Below, one piece after another: positions 52,239 to 58,136 of a DNA stretch of 64,000 nt. Source of the stretch: Streptomyces sp. NBC_01142 (GTDB lineage Bacteria > Actinomycetota > Actinomycetes > Streptomycetales > Streptomycetaceae); assembly GCF_026341125.1 (NCBI RefSeq), contig NZ_JAPEOR010000002.1, forward strand, positions 2,368,501 through 2,432,500, read 5' to 3'. The notes beneath the pieces were generated by a model that searched no databases, was not told the DNA's origin, and saw nothing but the letters and a program-made list of their open reading frames with translations. The position numbers and the translations under genes were made by a program. Numbering within the stretch: the first letter of the stretch is position 1; each line of letters begins with the position of its first letter.

Positions 52239-52367
52239 CAGTTGCTGTTGTGGGGTGTTCACGAGTGCGTCTGACCAGCATCGGAGAAGCAGCCTGAAGA
52301 TCGCTTCCCAGATCGTCAGAGATCGTTTCCCAGCCACCAGCCTCGCCGAGAAAGCTGTCGACCTCCA

Positions 52368-53630
52368 TCAGCTGGTGACGTCATCGGTGTCCCGGTCCTC
52401 GACGCGATCTGATTCTCCCAGGTCGGGGGCTGCTACGTGTGTCCGCCCACGGCTACCAAGGAGGCAGCTGACCGCGGCGGTGGCCGCTGCGGTTCCGGCA
52501 ACGAGTAGCAGGACGCGGTAGTCCACGAGCACAAGCAGACCCGCTCCGGCAGCCAGGGCTACGGCGTTGGGGGCGTAGAGGAGGGTGTTGGCGGTGGCCG
52601 CCACTCTGCCCAGGAGGTGGTCCGGGGACTCGCGTTGGACGGCCGTCAGAGCTGCGATCAGCACGCAGGGCAGCCCCGCGCCGATCATCGCGCTGGCAAG
52701 CAGAACAACTGGCTCCGAGGGAATGACGCGCAGGGCGACGCCCGCTGCGAACAGCATGATCCCGGCTGCGGCGAAGACCCGTTCGGGCATCCGCCGCAGC
52801 AGAGCACCGGCGAACAGCCCGATGACCACGGAGCCGATGCCCTGCGCGGCGTAGAGGATCCCGGCGAAGGCGGGCGGACGGTGAAGACCAGCGTCGACCA
52901 CCGCATAGACCGACGCTCCGTTCAGCCCGGCCACGCCCATGGTTGCCGCCCCGGCCAACACCAGCCGCCACAGAACCGGGTGGTGTCGCAGATAACGGAT
53001 TCCCTCGGCGGCCTGGGCACTCCATCGTTGGGCTTCAGCCGGGCGGGGCGCGGGTTCCGACACGCGTATGAGGGCGAAAGCTATCGCGGCAAGCACGAAG
53101 GTGACCGCGTCCAACAGGGCCACTGCTGTGCCGCCAAACTGAACGAACAGAAGCGCGCCCAGAAGCGGGGCGACCAGTTTCATGCCCTCGTTCGCCGTCA
53201 TCCGCAGGCCGTTGAAGTCGCCGCGCAGTGTTTCCGGTACAGCGGTCGCTACCAGTGCGGCCTCCGCCGCATCCAGCAGTACCGAGCTGGTGCCGTACAC
53301 GATCAGTACAGCAAACAGAATCCAGATCTGGTCGCTGGAGTGGACGGTGAGAAGCGGCAGCAGCACCGCGGCCATGCCGAGATTGGTCCAGATCAGCAAC
53401 GGCCGCCGGCGCGCCCGGTCGGCCAGTGTCCCGATCAGCGGGCCGAACAGAATGGGCGCCCATACGCAGAAGGTCGTCAGGGCAGCCAGACTGTCCGACC
53501 CGGTGAGCGACTTGGTCCACACACCGGCTGCCAGGGCCATAGCAGAGCTACCGAAGCCCGAGACCACCACACCGCTCAGGTAAAACACCACATTGCGGTC
53601 GCGTAAGACCCGCCCTCCGCCCCAGTCCAT
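52368..53630 (-). CDS. MFS exporter
   Basis: About 420 aa with 11-12 spans, of the type that exports drugs (MFS_3 / enterobactin-exporter-like layout). It has the first cytoplasmic loop GTLADRARRRPLLIWTN and the second-half LYAAQGIGSVVIGLFAG. I chose ATG 53630 (MDWGGGRVLRD), preceded by AAGGGG; the frame is open to 53708. Its codon use includes more AT-ending codons than core genes nearby. Left-most gene of accessory stretch 2. Confidence 0.88.
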   Translation of the reverse strand: MDWGGGRVLRDRNVVFYLSGVVVSGFGSSAMALAAGVWTKSLTGSDSLAALTTFCVWAPILFGPLIGTLADRARRRPLLIWTNLGMAAVLLPLLTVHSSDQIWILFAVLIVYGTSSVLLDAAEAALVATAVPETLRGDFNGLRMTANEGMKLVAPLLGALLFVQFGGTAVALLDAVTFVLAAIAFALIRVSEPAPRPAEAQRWSAQAAEGIRYLRHHPVLWRLVLAGAATMGVAGLNGASVYAVVDAGLHRPPAFAGILYAAQGIGSVVIGLFAGALLRRMPERVFAAAGIMLFAAGVALRVIPSEPVVLLASAMIGAGLPCVLIAALTAVQRESPDHLLGRVAATANTLLYAPNAVALAAGAGLLVLVDYRVLLLVAGTAAATAAVSCLLGSRGRTHVAAPDLGESDRVEDRDTDDVTS

Positions 53631-53941
53631 CCCCTTGCCCCTTCCACCGCCACGAAGACCCAGGCGCACCCCCGCCCGGCGTATGGAAAGCATTCTGCCC
53701 GCAAGCACCAGGGCGGAGGCAGGCCGTGCCCGTAGCGGTGAGCCTTTGACCGAGCAAGAGGCCCGCCGTGGTGGGCGGGAGTTGTCCGTCTGCGGTTCGC
53801 TGCGGGCTCAAGGCGATCGCGGGCGGTCGATTGGGGGCATTTGCGGTCACCTTCTGCGATCTTGCTATGGCCGCCCCTACGTTTAGCTGGGGCTCGGAGT
53901 GCCGTCGGGCTCGGGGATCGGCAAGCGAAGGCGAGGCCGGG
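53631..53941. other. Divergent intergenic region
   Basis: 311 bp between the MFS gene and a winged-helix gene reading away from it. It must hold both promoters. No palindrome or convincing gene is seen. Confidence 0.4.
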
Positions 53942-54481
53942 ATGACGCCACTGTTCGAGCGTCTGGATCAGGAAGAGGCGGTTGTTCGTGGCGAGTTGGA
54001 TGCTCTGCGCGAGAAGGTCGCGGCGACTGAGAAGCGGCTGGCTCATCTGACGATCACTCGGGAGACGCTGTTGTCTCTGGGCGCCGAGGAGCACGTCAAC
54101 CAGGATGACGGTACGCAATGGCCGCCGGAGAGCCCCGCAGCCGAGCCGATGCCGAATGGCCTTGCCCCCGATCCCCAACCCGCCGATGCGGAAGTACCTG
54201 CCAGTGGGCCCGTTTCGGCCGGCCCGTTGGAGTGGGAAGTGGCGCGAGAGCGGATGTTGGTGCTGCTTGCGGGGGCGGGTCGGGCGATGAAGGTGCAGGA
54301 CATTGCGTCGGCGATCGGCGAGGACGTCTCGACCATGTCGAAGGGCCGGCGGGTGGAGACGACCAGGTCCCGGCTGAAGCGTCTGGTGAAGGAGGGCCGC
54401 GTGACTGAAGGTCCGACGGCCTGGTTCACGATCTCTCCGGTCGATGCCGGCAAACCACGGCAGGGGGATCCTCGGGGGTGA
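53942..54481 (+). CDS. Coiled-coil plus winged-helix hypothetical protein
   Basis: A 179-aa protein. Residues about 5-45 form a coiled-coil (LDQEEAVVRGELDALREKV then AATEKRLAHLTITRE), about 50-90 are a Pro/Asp/Glu linker, and about 95-165 look like a winged helix (ARERMLVLLAGAGRAMKVQD, TTRSRLKRLVKEGRVTEG). I do not recognise the family. It could be a DNA-binding dimer. It is followed by a terminator, so it is a one-gene unit. Confidence 0.65.
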   Translation: MTPLFERLDQEEAVVRGELDALREKVAATEKRLAHLTITRETLLSLGAEEHVNQDDGTQWPPESPAAEPMPNGLAPDPQPADAEVPASGPVSAGPLEWEVARERMLVLLAGAGRAMKVQDIASAIGEDVSTMSKGRRVETTRSRLKRLVKEGRVTEGPTAWFTISPVDAGKPRQGDPRG

Positions 54482-54513
54482 ACCGGGGCCGCGGGCGCGC
54501 GGCAGGAGAGGGT

Positions 54514-54551
54514 GGCACCGCCGAGGGATTACCCATCGACTCGGCGGTGCC
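54514..54551 (+). terminator. Stem-loop terminator after the winged-helix gene
   Basis: GGCACCGCCGAG and its complement CTCGGCGGTGCC flank a 14-base loop, beginning 33 bp after the stop codon. The rest of the gap up to 54685 shows nothing I can name. Confidence 0.75.
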
Positions 54552-54685
54552 GGGTGCGTGAGCGCCGTCTGACAGGTGGCTCCCGCGTTCTCGAGGGTAG
54601 TTGAGGCAGTCTCCTCTCGATGTGCGGAGCCACGAACTTCGTCATGCCCGGTCGCTGCTTGGCGTCTTTGGGCGTGGATCGAGGC

Positions 54686-55003
54686 TCAATGCGTTCTTTT
54701 GCGATCGGTGTTGGTGCCGTCCGGCCACAGGGTGGTGCCGGTGAAGTGGGCAAGGCGGGCGACGGTGGCCACGTCCGGCCAGGACCGTCCCGCGACGAGG
54801 TCGGCGATGACCTGCCGGTTCACTCCGGAGCCGGCGGCGGTCGCGCGCAGGCTCAGGCCCTGGTCGTTCAGGACCAGGGCGAGGGTACGTGCGATGAGGC
54901 GGACCGCTTCGGCGGCCACGTCGGCACTCGGCTGCTCGGGCCAGGCTTCCGGATCGTCGGTCAGCTCCCGGGGGGAGCGTGCGCGGGCGCGTCCGCCGAC
55001 CAT
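54686..55003 (-). CDS. Helix-turn-helix protein of the recombinase-transposase module
   Basis: A 105-aa protein with a central XRE-like helix-turn-helix: LNDQGLSLRATAAGSGV then NRQVIADLVAGRSWPDV (about residues 48-80). The N-terminus is Arg-rich and the C-terminus short. ATG 55003 has a GAAGGA site about eight bases upstream. It reads away from the integrase-like gene across 70 bp, the usual place for a repressor that controls both sides. Confidence 0.7.
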   Translation of the reverse strand: MVGGRARARSPRELTDDPEAWPEQPSADVAAEAVRLIARTLALVLNDQGLSLRATAAGSGVNRQVIADLVAGRSWPDVATVARLAHFTGTTLWPDGTNTDRKRTH

Positions 55004-55073
55004 GCGCGCACCATCCTTCGTTGAAGTTGATCAGCTGTGGAATGGCTGCTTGTCCAGCCGGTATGTATGGACC

Positions 55074-56006
55074 GTGGTCCTTGATCCCGTTACGTCCCTG
55101 AAGATCACTCGCTATCGGCCCAGGAGCGCTCCGCCGGTCTGGGCCGAGGTCGCTCCGCTGGTGCGGTCGATCGTTGCCGCGGCCGTGACAGCCGTCCCTT
55201 ATGACGTGGAGCGGTTGCTGCATGTGGTCGGCAGGCTGGCGTTGTGGGCCGAGGCGGCGGGGCTCGAACGGTCCGCGGACGCGTGGTTGCGCAATGAGGT
55301 GATCGACGCGTTCGTGCTCTCGCGGGTGGGGGAGATCGAGGGGGCATCGGTACGGACGTACCGGACGTGGCTGCTGCGCGTCCGCGACGCCCTCGCCTGG
55401 AGTGAGCGCGGGGAGGCGTCCCCGGCGCGGATGCATGCGGACACAAGCCCGCATCAGCCTTACTGCGCGGCCGAGTTGGCGGGACTGCGGCACTGGGCCA
55501 CTCATCTGCCCCGTCAGCAGCGGACCGACGCGCTCGCGTTGCTGGGGCTGGGCGCCGGCCTGGGCCTGATGCCAAAAGAGGTCGCGGCCAGCCGAGGTCT
55601 CGATCTGTGCCGTCCGAGCAGAGGCGGACCGCTGCTGCACCGGGGCGTCGAGCGGCTGGTCCCACTGGTCGCCAGGGCAGCCTGGGACACAGTTCTGGGG
55701 GAGCTGGCAGAAACGGCGGGCGGCGGCTACCTGTTCCGGCCGAGGCGGACCGTCGAGTACGCGAAGAACCTGATCGGCTCCTGGTCCCTGATCCACCGGC
55801 CGCCGCAGGAGCTGCCCGCGGTGTCGGTCGGCCGGCTGCGGGCGACGTGGATCGTCGAGCTGATGCGCGCGCACATCGATCACCAGCTGATCGCCCAGGC
55901 GGCCGGGCTCGCTTCCGCCGCGTCTCTGGCCCGCTGGCAGCACCTGGTCCCACCCGTGGACGAGCTGACTGCGGCGCGTCTCTTGCGAGGCCCGGAGGCG
56001 AGGTGA
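55074..56006 (+). CDS. Degenerate tyrosine-recombinase-like protein
   Basis: About 310 aa, laid out like a phage integrase: a helical N-terminal part (SAM-like, VPYDVERLLHVVGRLALWAE), then a catalytic-type fold. Catalytic positions look lost. The first Arg motif reads GAGLGLMPKEV (about 159-169). The H-x-x-R region reads SVGRLRATW (about 249-257), keeping an Arg. The Tyr position reads SLARWQHL (about 283). It is probably unable to cleave DNA and may act in DNA binding (inference). GTG 55074 start; it overlaps the next gene by 4 bp (GTGA). Confidence 0.65.
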   Translation: MVLDPVTSLKITRYRPRSAPPVWAEVAPLVRSIVAAAVTAVPYDVERLLHVVGRLALWAEAAGLERSADAWLRNEVIDAFVLSRVGEIEGASVRTYRTWLLRVRDALAWSERGEASPARMHADTSPHQPYCAAELAGLRHWATHLPRQQRTDALALLGLGAGLGLMPKEVAASRGLDLCRPSRGGPLLHRGVERLVPLVARAAWDTVLGELAETAGGGYLFRPRRTVEYAKNLIGSWSLIHRPPQELPAVSVGRLRATWIVELMRAHIDHQLIAQAAGLASAASLARWQHLVPPVDELTAARLLRGPEAR

Positions 56007-57826
56007 CCAGACCCCGGGCCTGGCGAAGCCCGGAGAAGATCAAGCAGTGTCGGCCTCGACCGGTCACCGACGCACCGATGGAGATCCCGGACTCCAAGGT
56101 CGGACAACTCGACGCGCTCCTGCGCGAGTCCGGAGTCCTCCATCTGATCGACACCGAGCTGGGAAATCGGCCAGGCCCCAAAGGGCTCCCGGTGCGGACC
56201 GTGCTGGTGGGATTGCTGCTGGCGCTGCACTATCACCGGAGCGCCAGCCTCGCGGTTGTCTCCCGCGTGCTCCTCGATGAACTCCGGGCCCCTGCGCGCT
56301 CCTGGCTCGGCGTTCCGGAGGGCAGTCGCGCCGATGACCACGCCAGGATCGCGTTCTCCCGTCGCATCTACCGCTCCTTCGACCGGCTGACCACAGTCCT
56401 CGACCCTTACCGCTGCGACCGGCGCAGCCGCCTGCCGGCCGAAGAGCCCAGAGCTGTCGCTGCCGCCTGGGAAGATGCGGACGCCGAGCGCAAGCGTCGG
56501 CGAGAGCTGTTGCAGGAGATCAGTGACCGTCTGGTGCTGGTCACCGTCCGCGCTGCCCACCGCCGGGGCCTGCTCAAGGGATGGCAGGGCGATATCGGAG
56601 CCGACACCACTCCGGTTCCCGCCTGGCACCATCCGCCCCGCGAACGGCGGGGCCTCGCATCCGTCGAACTCACCGCCGGCTGGCACTACTGCGGGGGCGC
56701 TGAGGAAGGAATCTTCGGACACTCCGCCAGTCTTCTGGTCGCTGCCAGCCGACGACACCGCGCTGGTCACCCGCAGGCCGGTGAACGCGTCAGCCGCCAC
56801 CCGCAACTGGCGCTCGGCCTCGTCCTGGACACCCCGGGCAAGCGCATCGGCCCGAACACAGTCCACTCCCTGACCCAGCTTGCCCCGCTCGGCTTCCCGA
56901 CAGGGCTGCTGGCCGCCGACCGGGCCTACACCGACCAGATGACCGAGCACTTCGCCCAGCCGGTCCGCACCCTGGGCTACCAACTGGTTCTCGACTACAA
57001 ACAGCAACACCGTGGCGTCCAGGGCACCCACCAAGGCGCCCTTCTCGTCGACGGATCCCTCGCCTGCCCCGCCATGCCGCCCGCACTGGCCCACGCAACC
57101 ACAGGGCTCAACGACAAGGCCGTACGCGACCTCGATGACGGCACCGAGCTCAGCGAGCGGATCGCGGGCCGGGAACCGTACTACCTCAAGCTCAAGGAGA
57201 CCGCCGACGAGCGGGGCGCGGTCAGGCTCCAGTGCCCGGCCAGCGGGCCCTCGCCCGCCGTGGTGTGTCCCCGCTTCAACCAGGTCCACCCCGTCCCGGC
57301 ACCACGGCCGGCCGTGGTCGACCTCACCGACAAGCGGGCCACCGCCGCACACACTGCGGCCAAACCCACCATCCCGATCCCTCAAGGTGAACGACTGCGA
57401 CCCCTGCCCCAGGACGAGCTGCCGCGGATCTGCCAGAAGCCCACGATCACTGTCCGCCCCGGCGCCCTCGGCAAGCTCGACAAGTTCCGCCAGAACCGGC
57501 ACTACCTCCACCCCACCTGGCAGGACGCCTACCGGCCCGAGCGAGCGAACATCGAGGGCCTCAACGGCAGGGCCAAGAGCCACGGCATCGATATCTCCGA
57601 CCCCACGAAGCGGCTCGCCCACGGGCGGGTCGCGCAGACCATCCTGCTGGCGCTGATGATCTGCAGCATCAACCTGCACATCCTCTTCAGCTGGCAGCAG
57701 ACTTCTCGAACACAAGCGAACCGGACGACCCACGGAGTCGCCGCGCTCGCCGGATCGGCATCCACGCCCCCCGACGCGGCCGGGCTGCCGCCGCCCACAG
57801 GGCCGGAGACCCGCGAGACCATCTGA
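56003..57826 (+). CDS. DDE transposase-like protein
   Basis: About 607 aa. A candidate RNase-H-type triad can be picked out: Asp201 (or Asp197) in GDIGADTTPVPAW, Asp306 in LLAADRAYTDQM and Glu518 in RANIEGLNGRAKSHG, with spacing reminiscent of IS1182/IS1634-like transposases. An N-terminal helical part (GPKGLPVRTVLVGLLLALH) precedes it. Starts at GTG 56003 inside the stop of the integrase-like gene, so the two proteins are made together. No terminal inverted repeats could be found around the module by eye. Confidence 0.65.
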   Translation: MTRPRAWRSPEKIKQCRPRPVTDAPMEIPDSKVGQLDALLRESGVLHLIDTELGNRPGPKGLPVRTVLVGLLLALHYHRSASLAVVSRVLLDELRAPARSWLGVPEGSRADDHARIAFSRRIYRSFDRLTTVLDPYRCDRRSRLPAEEPRAVAAAWEDADAERKRRRELLQEISDRLVLVTVRAAHRRGLLKGWQGDIGADTTPVPAWHHPPRERRGLASVELTAGWHYCGGAEEGIFGHSASLLVAASRRHRAGHPQAGERVSRHPQLALGLVLDTPGKRIGPNTVHSLTQLAPLGFPTGLLAADRAYTDQMTEHFAQPVRTLGYQLVLDYKQQHRGVQGTHQGALLVDGSLACPAMPPALAHATTGLNDKAVRDLDDGTELSERIAGREPYYLKLKETADERGAVRLQCPASGPSPAVVCPRFNQVHPVPAPRPAVVDLTDKRATAAHTAAKPTIPIPQGERLRPLPQDELPRICQKPTITVRPGALGKLDKFRQNRHYLHPTWQDAYRPERANIEGLNGRAKSHGIDISDPTKRLAHGRVAQTILLALMICSINLHILFSWQQTSRTQANRTTHGVAALAGSASTPPDAAGLPPPTGPETRETI

Positions 57827-57986
57827 GACCCCATCACCACACGCCGGGATCAAGCACGCCCGCCGACAGCCCAGAAACGCCTCACGCACCCGAACCACCC
57901 CGCAACATCAGGCCGACGACCGCCCGGCACCGCCTCCGACACCGATCGCGTTCGGACACTGCCTCGAACAGACCCCGGAAACGCCA

Positions 57987-58023
57987 AGATCCCGCCCGAT
58001 CAATCAGATCGGACGGGATCTTG
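57987..58023. terminator. Stem-loop between transposase-like gene and tRNA-Ala
   Basis: AAGATCCCGCCCGATC and GATCGGACGGGATCTT pair over 16 positions with one mismatch around AATCA. It lies 40 bp past the tRNA 3' end (minus strand) and 160 bp past the transposase-like stop, so it can serve both. The stretch 57827-57986 has nothing I can name. Confidence 0.75.
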
Positions 58024-58062
58024 TGAACTCTTCCTGAGCTAACTCAAGAACAGTCGTGTTGT

Positions 58063-58136
58063 GGACCTGTGGGGATTTGAACCCCAGACCCCCTCGATGC
58101 GAACGAGGTGCGCTACCAGACTGCGCCACAGGCCCT
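58063..58136 (-). tRNA. tRNA-Ala (CGC)
   Basis: 74 nt. Acceptor GGGCCTG/CAGGTCC with the G3-U70 pair that marks alanine tRNAs, D stem GCGC/GCGC, anticodon stem CCTCG/CGAGG around loop TTCGCAT (anticodon CGC), T stem TGGGG/CCCCA with TTCAAAT loop. CCA is not encoded. The 3' end faces the accessory stretch, the usual side for integration. Confidence 0.95.

Follow-up and report, generated by a model that had tools for sequence, protein, structure and literature searches.

The window, which is the whole stretch of DNA analysed here, comprises 64,000 nt of Streptomyces sp. NBC_01142 (GCF_026341125.1, NZ_JAPEOR010000002.1, positions 2,368,501 to 2,432,500 of the forward strand). A preliminary description had singled out a three-gene module beside a tRNA-Ala gene and had read it either as a mobile element with a pseudo-recombinase as target selector or as a domesticated nuclease system. 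Its gene map is confirmed (Table 1): an XRE-like gene with a PF01381 match is divergent from an integrase-like gene on the plus strand, which overlaps the gene for a 607-aa protein by 4 bp (GTGA, 56003-56006). The neighbouring tRNA is tRNA-Ala(CGC), and 234 bp separate the end of the transposase gene from the tRNA 3' end. The three genes stand, but they are not the whole unit, which extends left to about 52254 and has two more genes and definable ends. We therefore assign the module to a larger mobile element of 5.8 kb (about 52254-58056), in which the left end is followed by the MFS cargo gene, the winged-helix-like gene, the XRE gene, the pseudo-recombinase gene, the transposase gene and a right end with a putative terminator.

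Table 1. Features of the element and its target in the window.
Feature	Position	Strand	Remark
Target duplication, left copy, TGTTGTGG	52246..52253		Same as 58057-58064
Left end: tip GGTGTTCACGAG and repeats AGATCG(C/T)TTCCCA at 52298 and 52320	52254..52335	+	
MFS transporter, cargo	52368..53708	-	PF07690, E 8e-41
Small putative coiled-coil/winged-helix-like protein	53942..54481	+	Conserved element gene
XRE-type HTH protein	54686..55003	-	PF01381, E 1e-7
Pseudo-tyrosine-recombinase, proposed target selector	55050..56006	+	Divergent from HTH gene
Predicted DDE transposase, 607 aa	56003..57826	+	Tn5-like fold, triad
Right-end hairpin	57986..58022		From sequence; similar hairpins in other right ends
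Right-end tip, GTTC..GAG motif, inverted orientation	58025..58056		
Target duplication, right copy	58057..58064		Final 4 nt form the tRNA 3' tip
tRNA-Ala(CGC), target, intact	58061..58135	-	

The genes of the element differ in how widely they are shared. By tblastn, the XRE-type gene is found in 34 of 50 loci, also in Leu-type elements, and its product is probably a regulator of the element. The gene at 53942-54481 has matches in 22 of the 50; its sequence, with one weak Pfam match, suggests a coiled-coil or winged-helix-like product. The MFS cargo gene gave a single weak match (31%) in one of the 50 loci, L037, where the cargo is a different MFS protein. Cargo varies across the family and includes MFS transporters, a barstar-like protein, Fic, an ABC transporter, an oxidoreductase and several unknown proteins; these come from 20 scanned proteins, the window MFS among them, whose reading frames were picked mechanically by length and GC3. 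In L043 and L048, Fic/DOC-domain proteins lie in the cargo near the left end. The pseudo-recombinase probably starts at TTG 55050 or a codon close by, and ATG 55002 is also in frame.

Ends, target duplications and empty sites

The limits of the element were set from tandem junctions: in relatives with tandem copies, the match to 52239-52335 abuts the sequence that adjoins the tRNA in the window, giving the order right end, target, left end. A generic repeat search did not expose the ends, whereas this comparison did, and no repeat of at least 24 nt links both ends of the window element. Sequence similar to its left end recurs at the left ends of other elements and at tandem junctions. The tips are GGTGTTCACGAG on the left and, inverted, CGACTGTTCTTGAG on the right, and the 8-bp sequence TGTTGTGG is present at both flanks. 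L049, in which the left flank is likewise chromosomal, has the duplication CTGCGGTG and the tips GGCCGTTCACGAGT and GGCCGTTCTTGAGT. The right-end tips hold palindromes.

Terminal inverted repeats together with a target duplication are present in 12 Ala-type elements. The duplication test covered these 12 of 42 loci, in which a left end lies beside a matching target stretch, and left out the other 30; the 4-nt target stretches are identical in 10 of the 12 elements with both ends (3.0 expected), and at least 10 identical pairs were reached in 0 of 100,000 shuffled pairings. Of the 12 left flanks, nine consist of older tandem elements and three of chromosomal DNA (the window, L049 and L052), so not all 12 duplications are independent chromosomal insertions; in L052 the match is not exact. 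The motifs tried did not pick up the left ends of Leu-type elements.

Occupied and empty sites were compared at 30 tRNA-Ala(CGC) loci including the window, kept out of 116 genomes with a match. A right end is present at nine of them and absent from 21, which are empty; one of ten right-end calls, L068, was dropped by eye as a false match. In the empty sites L077, L083 and L090, a terminator and CTGCGGTGG stand immediately before the tRNA, and the element's own right-end hairpin stands approximately where the native terminator does. From its sequence, the window hairpin is likely to be the terminator for the transposase gene and the tRNA both. It is similar to native tRNA terminators at some of the empty sites and was perhaps captured from a tRNA-Ala locus. 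Duplication of a whole tRNA was considered for L051 and L060, which have two tRNA-Ala(GGC) genes, and was rejected, the second tRNA being outside the element in both. At L046:6241, an Ala-type right end has no adjoining tRNA, as either a rearrangement or an off-target insertion would leave it.

Module and flank identities were compared in eight loci. The module is the more similar in L042 (93.5% against 81%, right flanks), L044 (91.3 against 80%), L043 (84.8 against 76-80%), L032 (84.6 against 72-77%) and L035 (92.8 against 75-81%, short flanks); L033, L034 and L036 show no clear excess. Many copies of the pseudo-recombinase and transposase genes are partial or carry stops, and the distribution of the family is patchy.

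The recombinase-like protein and its partner transposase

The recombinase-like protein (318 aa) has a tyrosine recombinase fold, with SroF, YopR and MrpR among its structural matches. The recombinase match covers residues 2-316, and a Pfam domain scan of the protein gave no match. The preliminary description held that the fold is kept while the usual Arg, His and Tyr residues are lost. This agrees with the window protein, in which ArgII is retained: the five catalytic columns read Met (ArgI), Gly (His), Arg (ArgII), Leu (GH-box His) and Trp (Tyr), so that the R-H-R-Y set of tyrosine integrases is incomplete. Among 33 aligned relatives, ArgI (the Box I Arg) and the GH-box His are missing in all 33 and the HxxR His in 32, while Tyr occupies the expected column in 20; no row has the full catalytic set. 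The dN/dS values lie between 0.10 and 0.28 (five pairs), and we regard the pseudo-recombinase as preserved by selection despite its lost catalytic residues. A distant pseudo-recombinase, L174:3806-5539, has ArgI, ArgII and Tyr and lacks the two His only; it may be an intermediate toward loss of catalysis. In the distant lineages L173-L178, two or three pseudo-recombinase domains stand in tandem upstream of the transposase and perhaps read a longer site. A canonical tyrosine recombinase gene (L178:430-1545) adjoins tRNA-Gly(CCC) on a contig that carries the pseudo-recombinase/transposase pair elsewhere.

The 607-aa protein has a Tn5-like fold. Its plausible DDE triad, already pointed out in the preliminary description, consists of D201, D306 and E518 in an R-x3-E-x6-K context and is conserved in the family. 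As to membership in a known IS family, which would have counted against the preliminary reading, none of the catalogued IS family models is matched by the window protein, although distant members resemble IS1182. The curated model NF033551, used as the IS1182/IS4 test, is matched by one of 27 members of A5 and by all six distant members, the latter far below the model cut-off. On these sequence features we take the protein to be a DDE transposase and remote kin of IS1182. The genome of the window holds a second transposase relative (G000:C1:3417897-3419158, L181), decayed and very divergent, which adjoins tRNA-Met; no partner pseudo-recombinase gene was detected there.

The two larger genes do co-occur, as the preliminary description had anticipated. 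Of 295 Streptomyces genomes, 40 have the pseudo-recombinase and 59 have the transposase. The transposase lies downstream in 29/31 pseudo-recombinase matches of at least 800 bp (35/43 of all lengths), and the pseudo-recombinase lies upstream in 24/28 transposase pieces of at least 900 bp (43/80 of all lengths); these counts cover 43 of 50 rows for the pseudo-recombinase and 80 of 100 for the transposase, since the others are additional pieces of genes already counted. In profile searches of the phylum, the transposase was found in 18 of 396 genomes and the pseudo-recombinase in 13 of 386, all 13 within the 18. The pseudo-recombinase is present in 10 of 15 phylum loci, six of which have more than one domain in a row. 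No pseudo-recombinase was detected in L167, L172, L180 and L181, where the transposase is near a tRNA, and L169, by a tmRNA, is cut by the contig end.

Proposed selection of tRNA 3' ends

The relation to tRNA genes was examined in 51 loci picked for the pseudo-recombinase and transposase genes, not for tRNAs, and the comparison of ends, duplications and tRNA neighbours envisaged in the preliminary description yielded, besides the ends and the 8-bp duplication, a fixed orientation. Of 44 transposase C-termini found, 38 point at the 3' end of a tRNA; the distance is 194-258 bp in 33 and -22, 50, 77, 115 and 185 bp in the other five. The chance expectation is about 0.12% per gene, from 79 tRNA matches in 10.1 Mb. 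The remaining six comprise the outer tandem-array members L036, L037, L043 and L138 as well as L046 and L134, which have no tRNA at the right end. The targets are Ala(CGC), Ala(GGC), Ala(TGC), Leu(GAG) and Leu(CAG). The search of the phylum Actinomycetota gave 15 loci, one of them from the genome of the window. In 10, a tRNA or tmRNA 3' end is about 130-270 bp away: Leu(CAG) twice, Met twice, Gly(CCC), Leu(TAA), Ser(GGA) twice, Tyr and tmRNA. In two more, the distance to a tmRNA is 1.6 and 4.0 kb, and the other three have no tRNA or tmRNA on the transposase side. A 52-bp copy of the tRNA 3' part (94% identical) at G013:C1:3815866-3815917 lies at a distance of 12.7 kb from the tRNA-Ala(CGC) of that genome, which suggests that the same tRNA gene is used by an ordinary integrase island.

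The target follows lineage, judging from both trees. Target labels require nine changes on the selector tree (39 rows; 18.7 in shuffles) and eight on the transposase tree (44 rows; 20.5 in shuffles), where rows with no target label were left out and near-copies add to the clustering. On the selector tree, L129, at Leu(GAG), is grouped with the Leu(CAG) set, a possible target switch.

We consider it probable that these elements form a transposon family in which an inactivated tyrosine recombinase picks out tRNA 3' ends as targets. The support comprises the ends, the duplication, the fixed orientation and distance, co-inheritance, the lost recombinase residues, the intact DDE triad and selection on both proteins; binding, recruitment, repression and chemistry, and the pseudo-recombinase itself as the target selector, are what we infer. 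The module would be the transposition core of the 5.8-kb transposon, which homes to the tRNA-Ala(CGC) 3' end. Integrases specific for tRNAs bind tRNA genes, and the pseudo-recombinase would likewise bind the tRNA gene sequence-specifically, with no cutting. It would then recruit the DDE transposase, which carries both element ends and would join them to the target at nicks staggered by about 8 bp, one within the terminal base pairs of the tRNA gene and the other just downstream. The duplication would keep the tRNA whole, and the right end would supply a new terminator. Lastly, the HTH protein would be a probable repressor of the divergent promoter.

The main rival, a different division of labour in which the transposase picks the tRNA itself and the pseudo-recombinase binds the element ends or serves as a regulator or architectural protein, seems to us unlikely. 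Phage regulators include catalytically dead recombinase folds, and SroF, YopR and MrpR are among the structural matches of the pseudo-recombinase, for which the right-end palindromes are possible sites. L167 lies by a tRNA with no partner detected, and the transposase tree also clusters by target; since both trees do so, selection by one protein is not cleanly separated from selection by the other. Pairs were compared in bands of equal transposase identity, in which the pairs are non-independent. In the band 0.30-0.36, same-target pseudo-recombinases are relatively more alike (+0.065, n 41, against -0.010, n 111), as they are at 0.45-0.55 (+0.006, n 40, against -0.023 for different targets, n 13), whereas the band 0.2-0.3 shows no excess (same-target 0.004, n 5; different-target 0.017, n 231). 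The bands give a weak and partly inconsistent indication that the pseudo-recombinase rather than the transposase tracks the target. In addition, targeting of tRNA and tmRNA genes is described as a typical tyrosine recombinase trait (PMC4383910), which also speaks for the pseudo-recombinase as selector.

It is very improbable that the recombinase-like protein retains activity with unusual residues and carries out the integration, leaving the DDE protein with another role. Location at tRNA 3' ends and tandem arrays would fit this, as in integrase islands, as would the Tyr in 20/33 relatives and the two Arg and Tyr of L174. However, ArgI and the GH-box His are present in 0/33 and the HxxR His in 1/33, and the window has Trp in the Tyr column; the flanking repeat of about 8 bp and the inverted terminal repeats are not the long tRNA-fragment identity of such islands, and the DDE triad is conserved. 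Least credible is a domesticated nuclease or defence system that merely adjoins tRNA genes. A single weak PADLOC hit (E 0.003) for the 607-aa protein points to it; the defined mobile ends with their duplications, the variable cargo, the decayed copies, the tandem arrays and the empty sites speak against it. A mobile element with a putative selector is by far the better fit of the two initial readings, favoured by the terminal repeats, duplications, variable cargo, arrays, empty sites, patchy distribution and a transposase gene that almost always points toward the tRNA 3' end.

Relation to known systems

Terminal repeats, short target duplications (as in IS1182 and Tn5), the R-x3-E-x6-K signature and a Tn5-like fold are traits of IS1182/IS4-type elements that are shared here. 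The partner gene, the cargo and the tRNA homing go beyond that type, and the window protein matches no IS model. In tyrosine-integrase islands (Islander), insertion likewise occurs in tRNA or tmRNA genes and leaves the gene intact (PMC4383910). Such islands depend on an active integrase, and a displaced piece of the tRNA is left behind; the present family has lost catalytic residues and shows an 8-bp duplication instead, and no displaced tRNA 3' fragment was found at the far end of the window element, where only the 8 bp are repeated.

The nearest precedent in function is, in our analysis, TnsF of Tn6022, an inactivated tyrosine recombinase by which a Tn7-like transposon reaches comM (Faure et al. 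2023, PMC10293859). Both are DDE transposons that encode an inactivated tyrosine recombinase as target selector, a role that is proposed here. In that account, TnsF has N-terminal zinc fingers and acts with TniQ and the Tn7 machinery; its target is comM rather than a tRNA or tmRNA gene, and its transposon is Tn7-like rather than Tn5/IS1182-like (PMC10293859). The five genes between the ends of the window element have no Pfam match to the AAA+ protein TnsC, TniQ/TnsD or TnsA/TnsB. The Tsy transposon also combines a recombinase-fold protein (a TnsF homologue) and an HTH protein in one mobile element, but it needs catalytically active tyrosine recombinases, and its reported genes (YRec, HTH, TnsF and a GIY-YIG nuclease) include no DDE transposase (PMC10293859). 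The tRNA-homing CAST I-B2 and I-D are likewise DDE transposons downstream of a tRNA gene, whereas they reportedly use TnsD as selector, together with Tn7 proteins and CRISPR parts (PMC10293859). Among eukaryotes, Dada transposons are also DNA transposons aimed at small RNA genes (PMC3706591, PMC8869645). No description of such elements was recognised in the literature searched, going by titles and abstract openings, and the architecture appears undescribed there.

We lean towards the broader view that these are phylum-wide, Tn7-independent two-component homing transposons, in which a dead tyrosine recombinase, diversified to recognise many tRNA and tmRNA genes, would steer a Tn5/IS1182-like DDE transposase directly, with no AAA+ adaptor. 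If true, this would add a second case in which a dead tyrosine recombinase serves as target selector, now beside a simple transposase and in the absence of Tn7 proteins, and would show a route by which a cut-and-paste transposon gains harmless, single-site targeting. The family would offer a natural set of selectors for different tRNA genes, so that selector swapping would be a direct test of target choice, and this set is a possible route to compact site-specific insertion tools.
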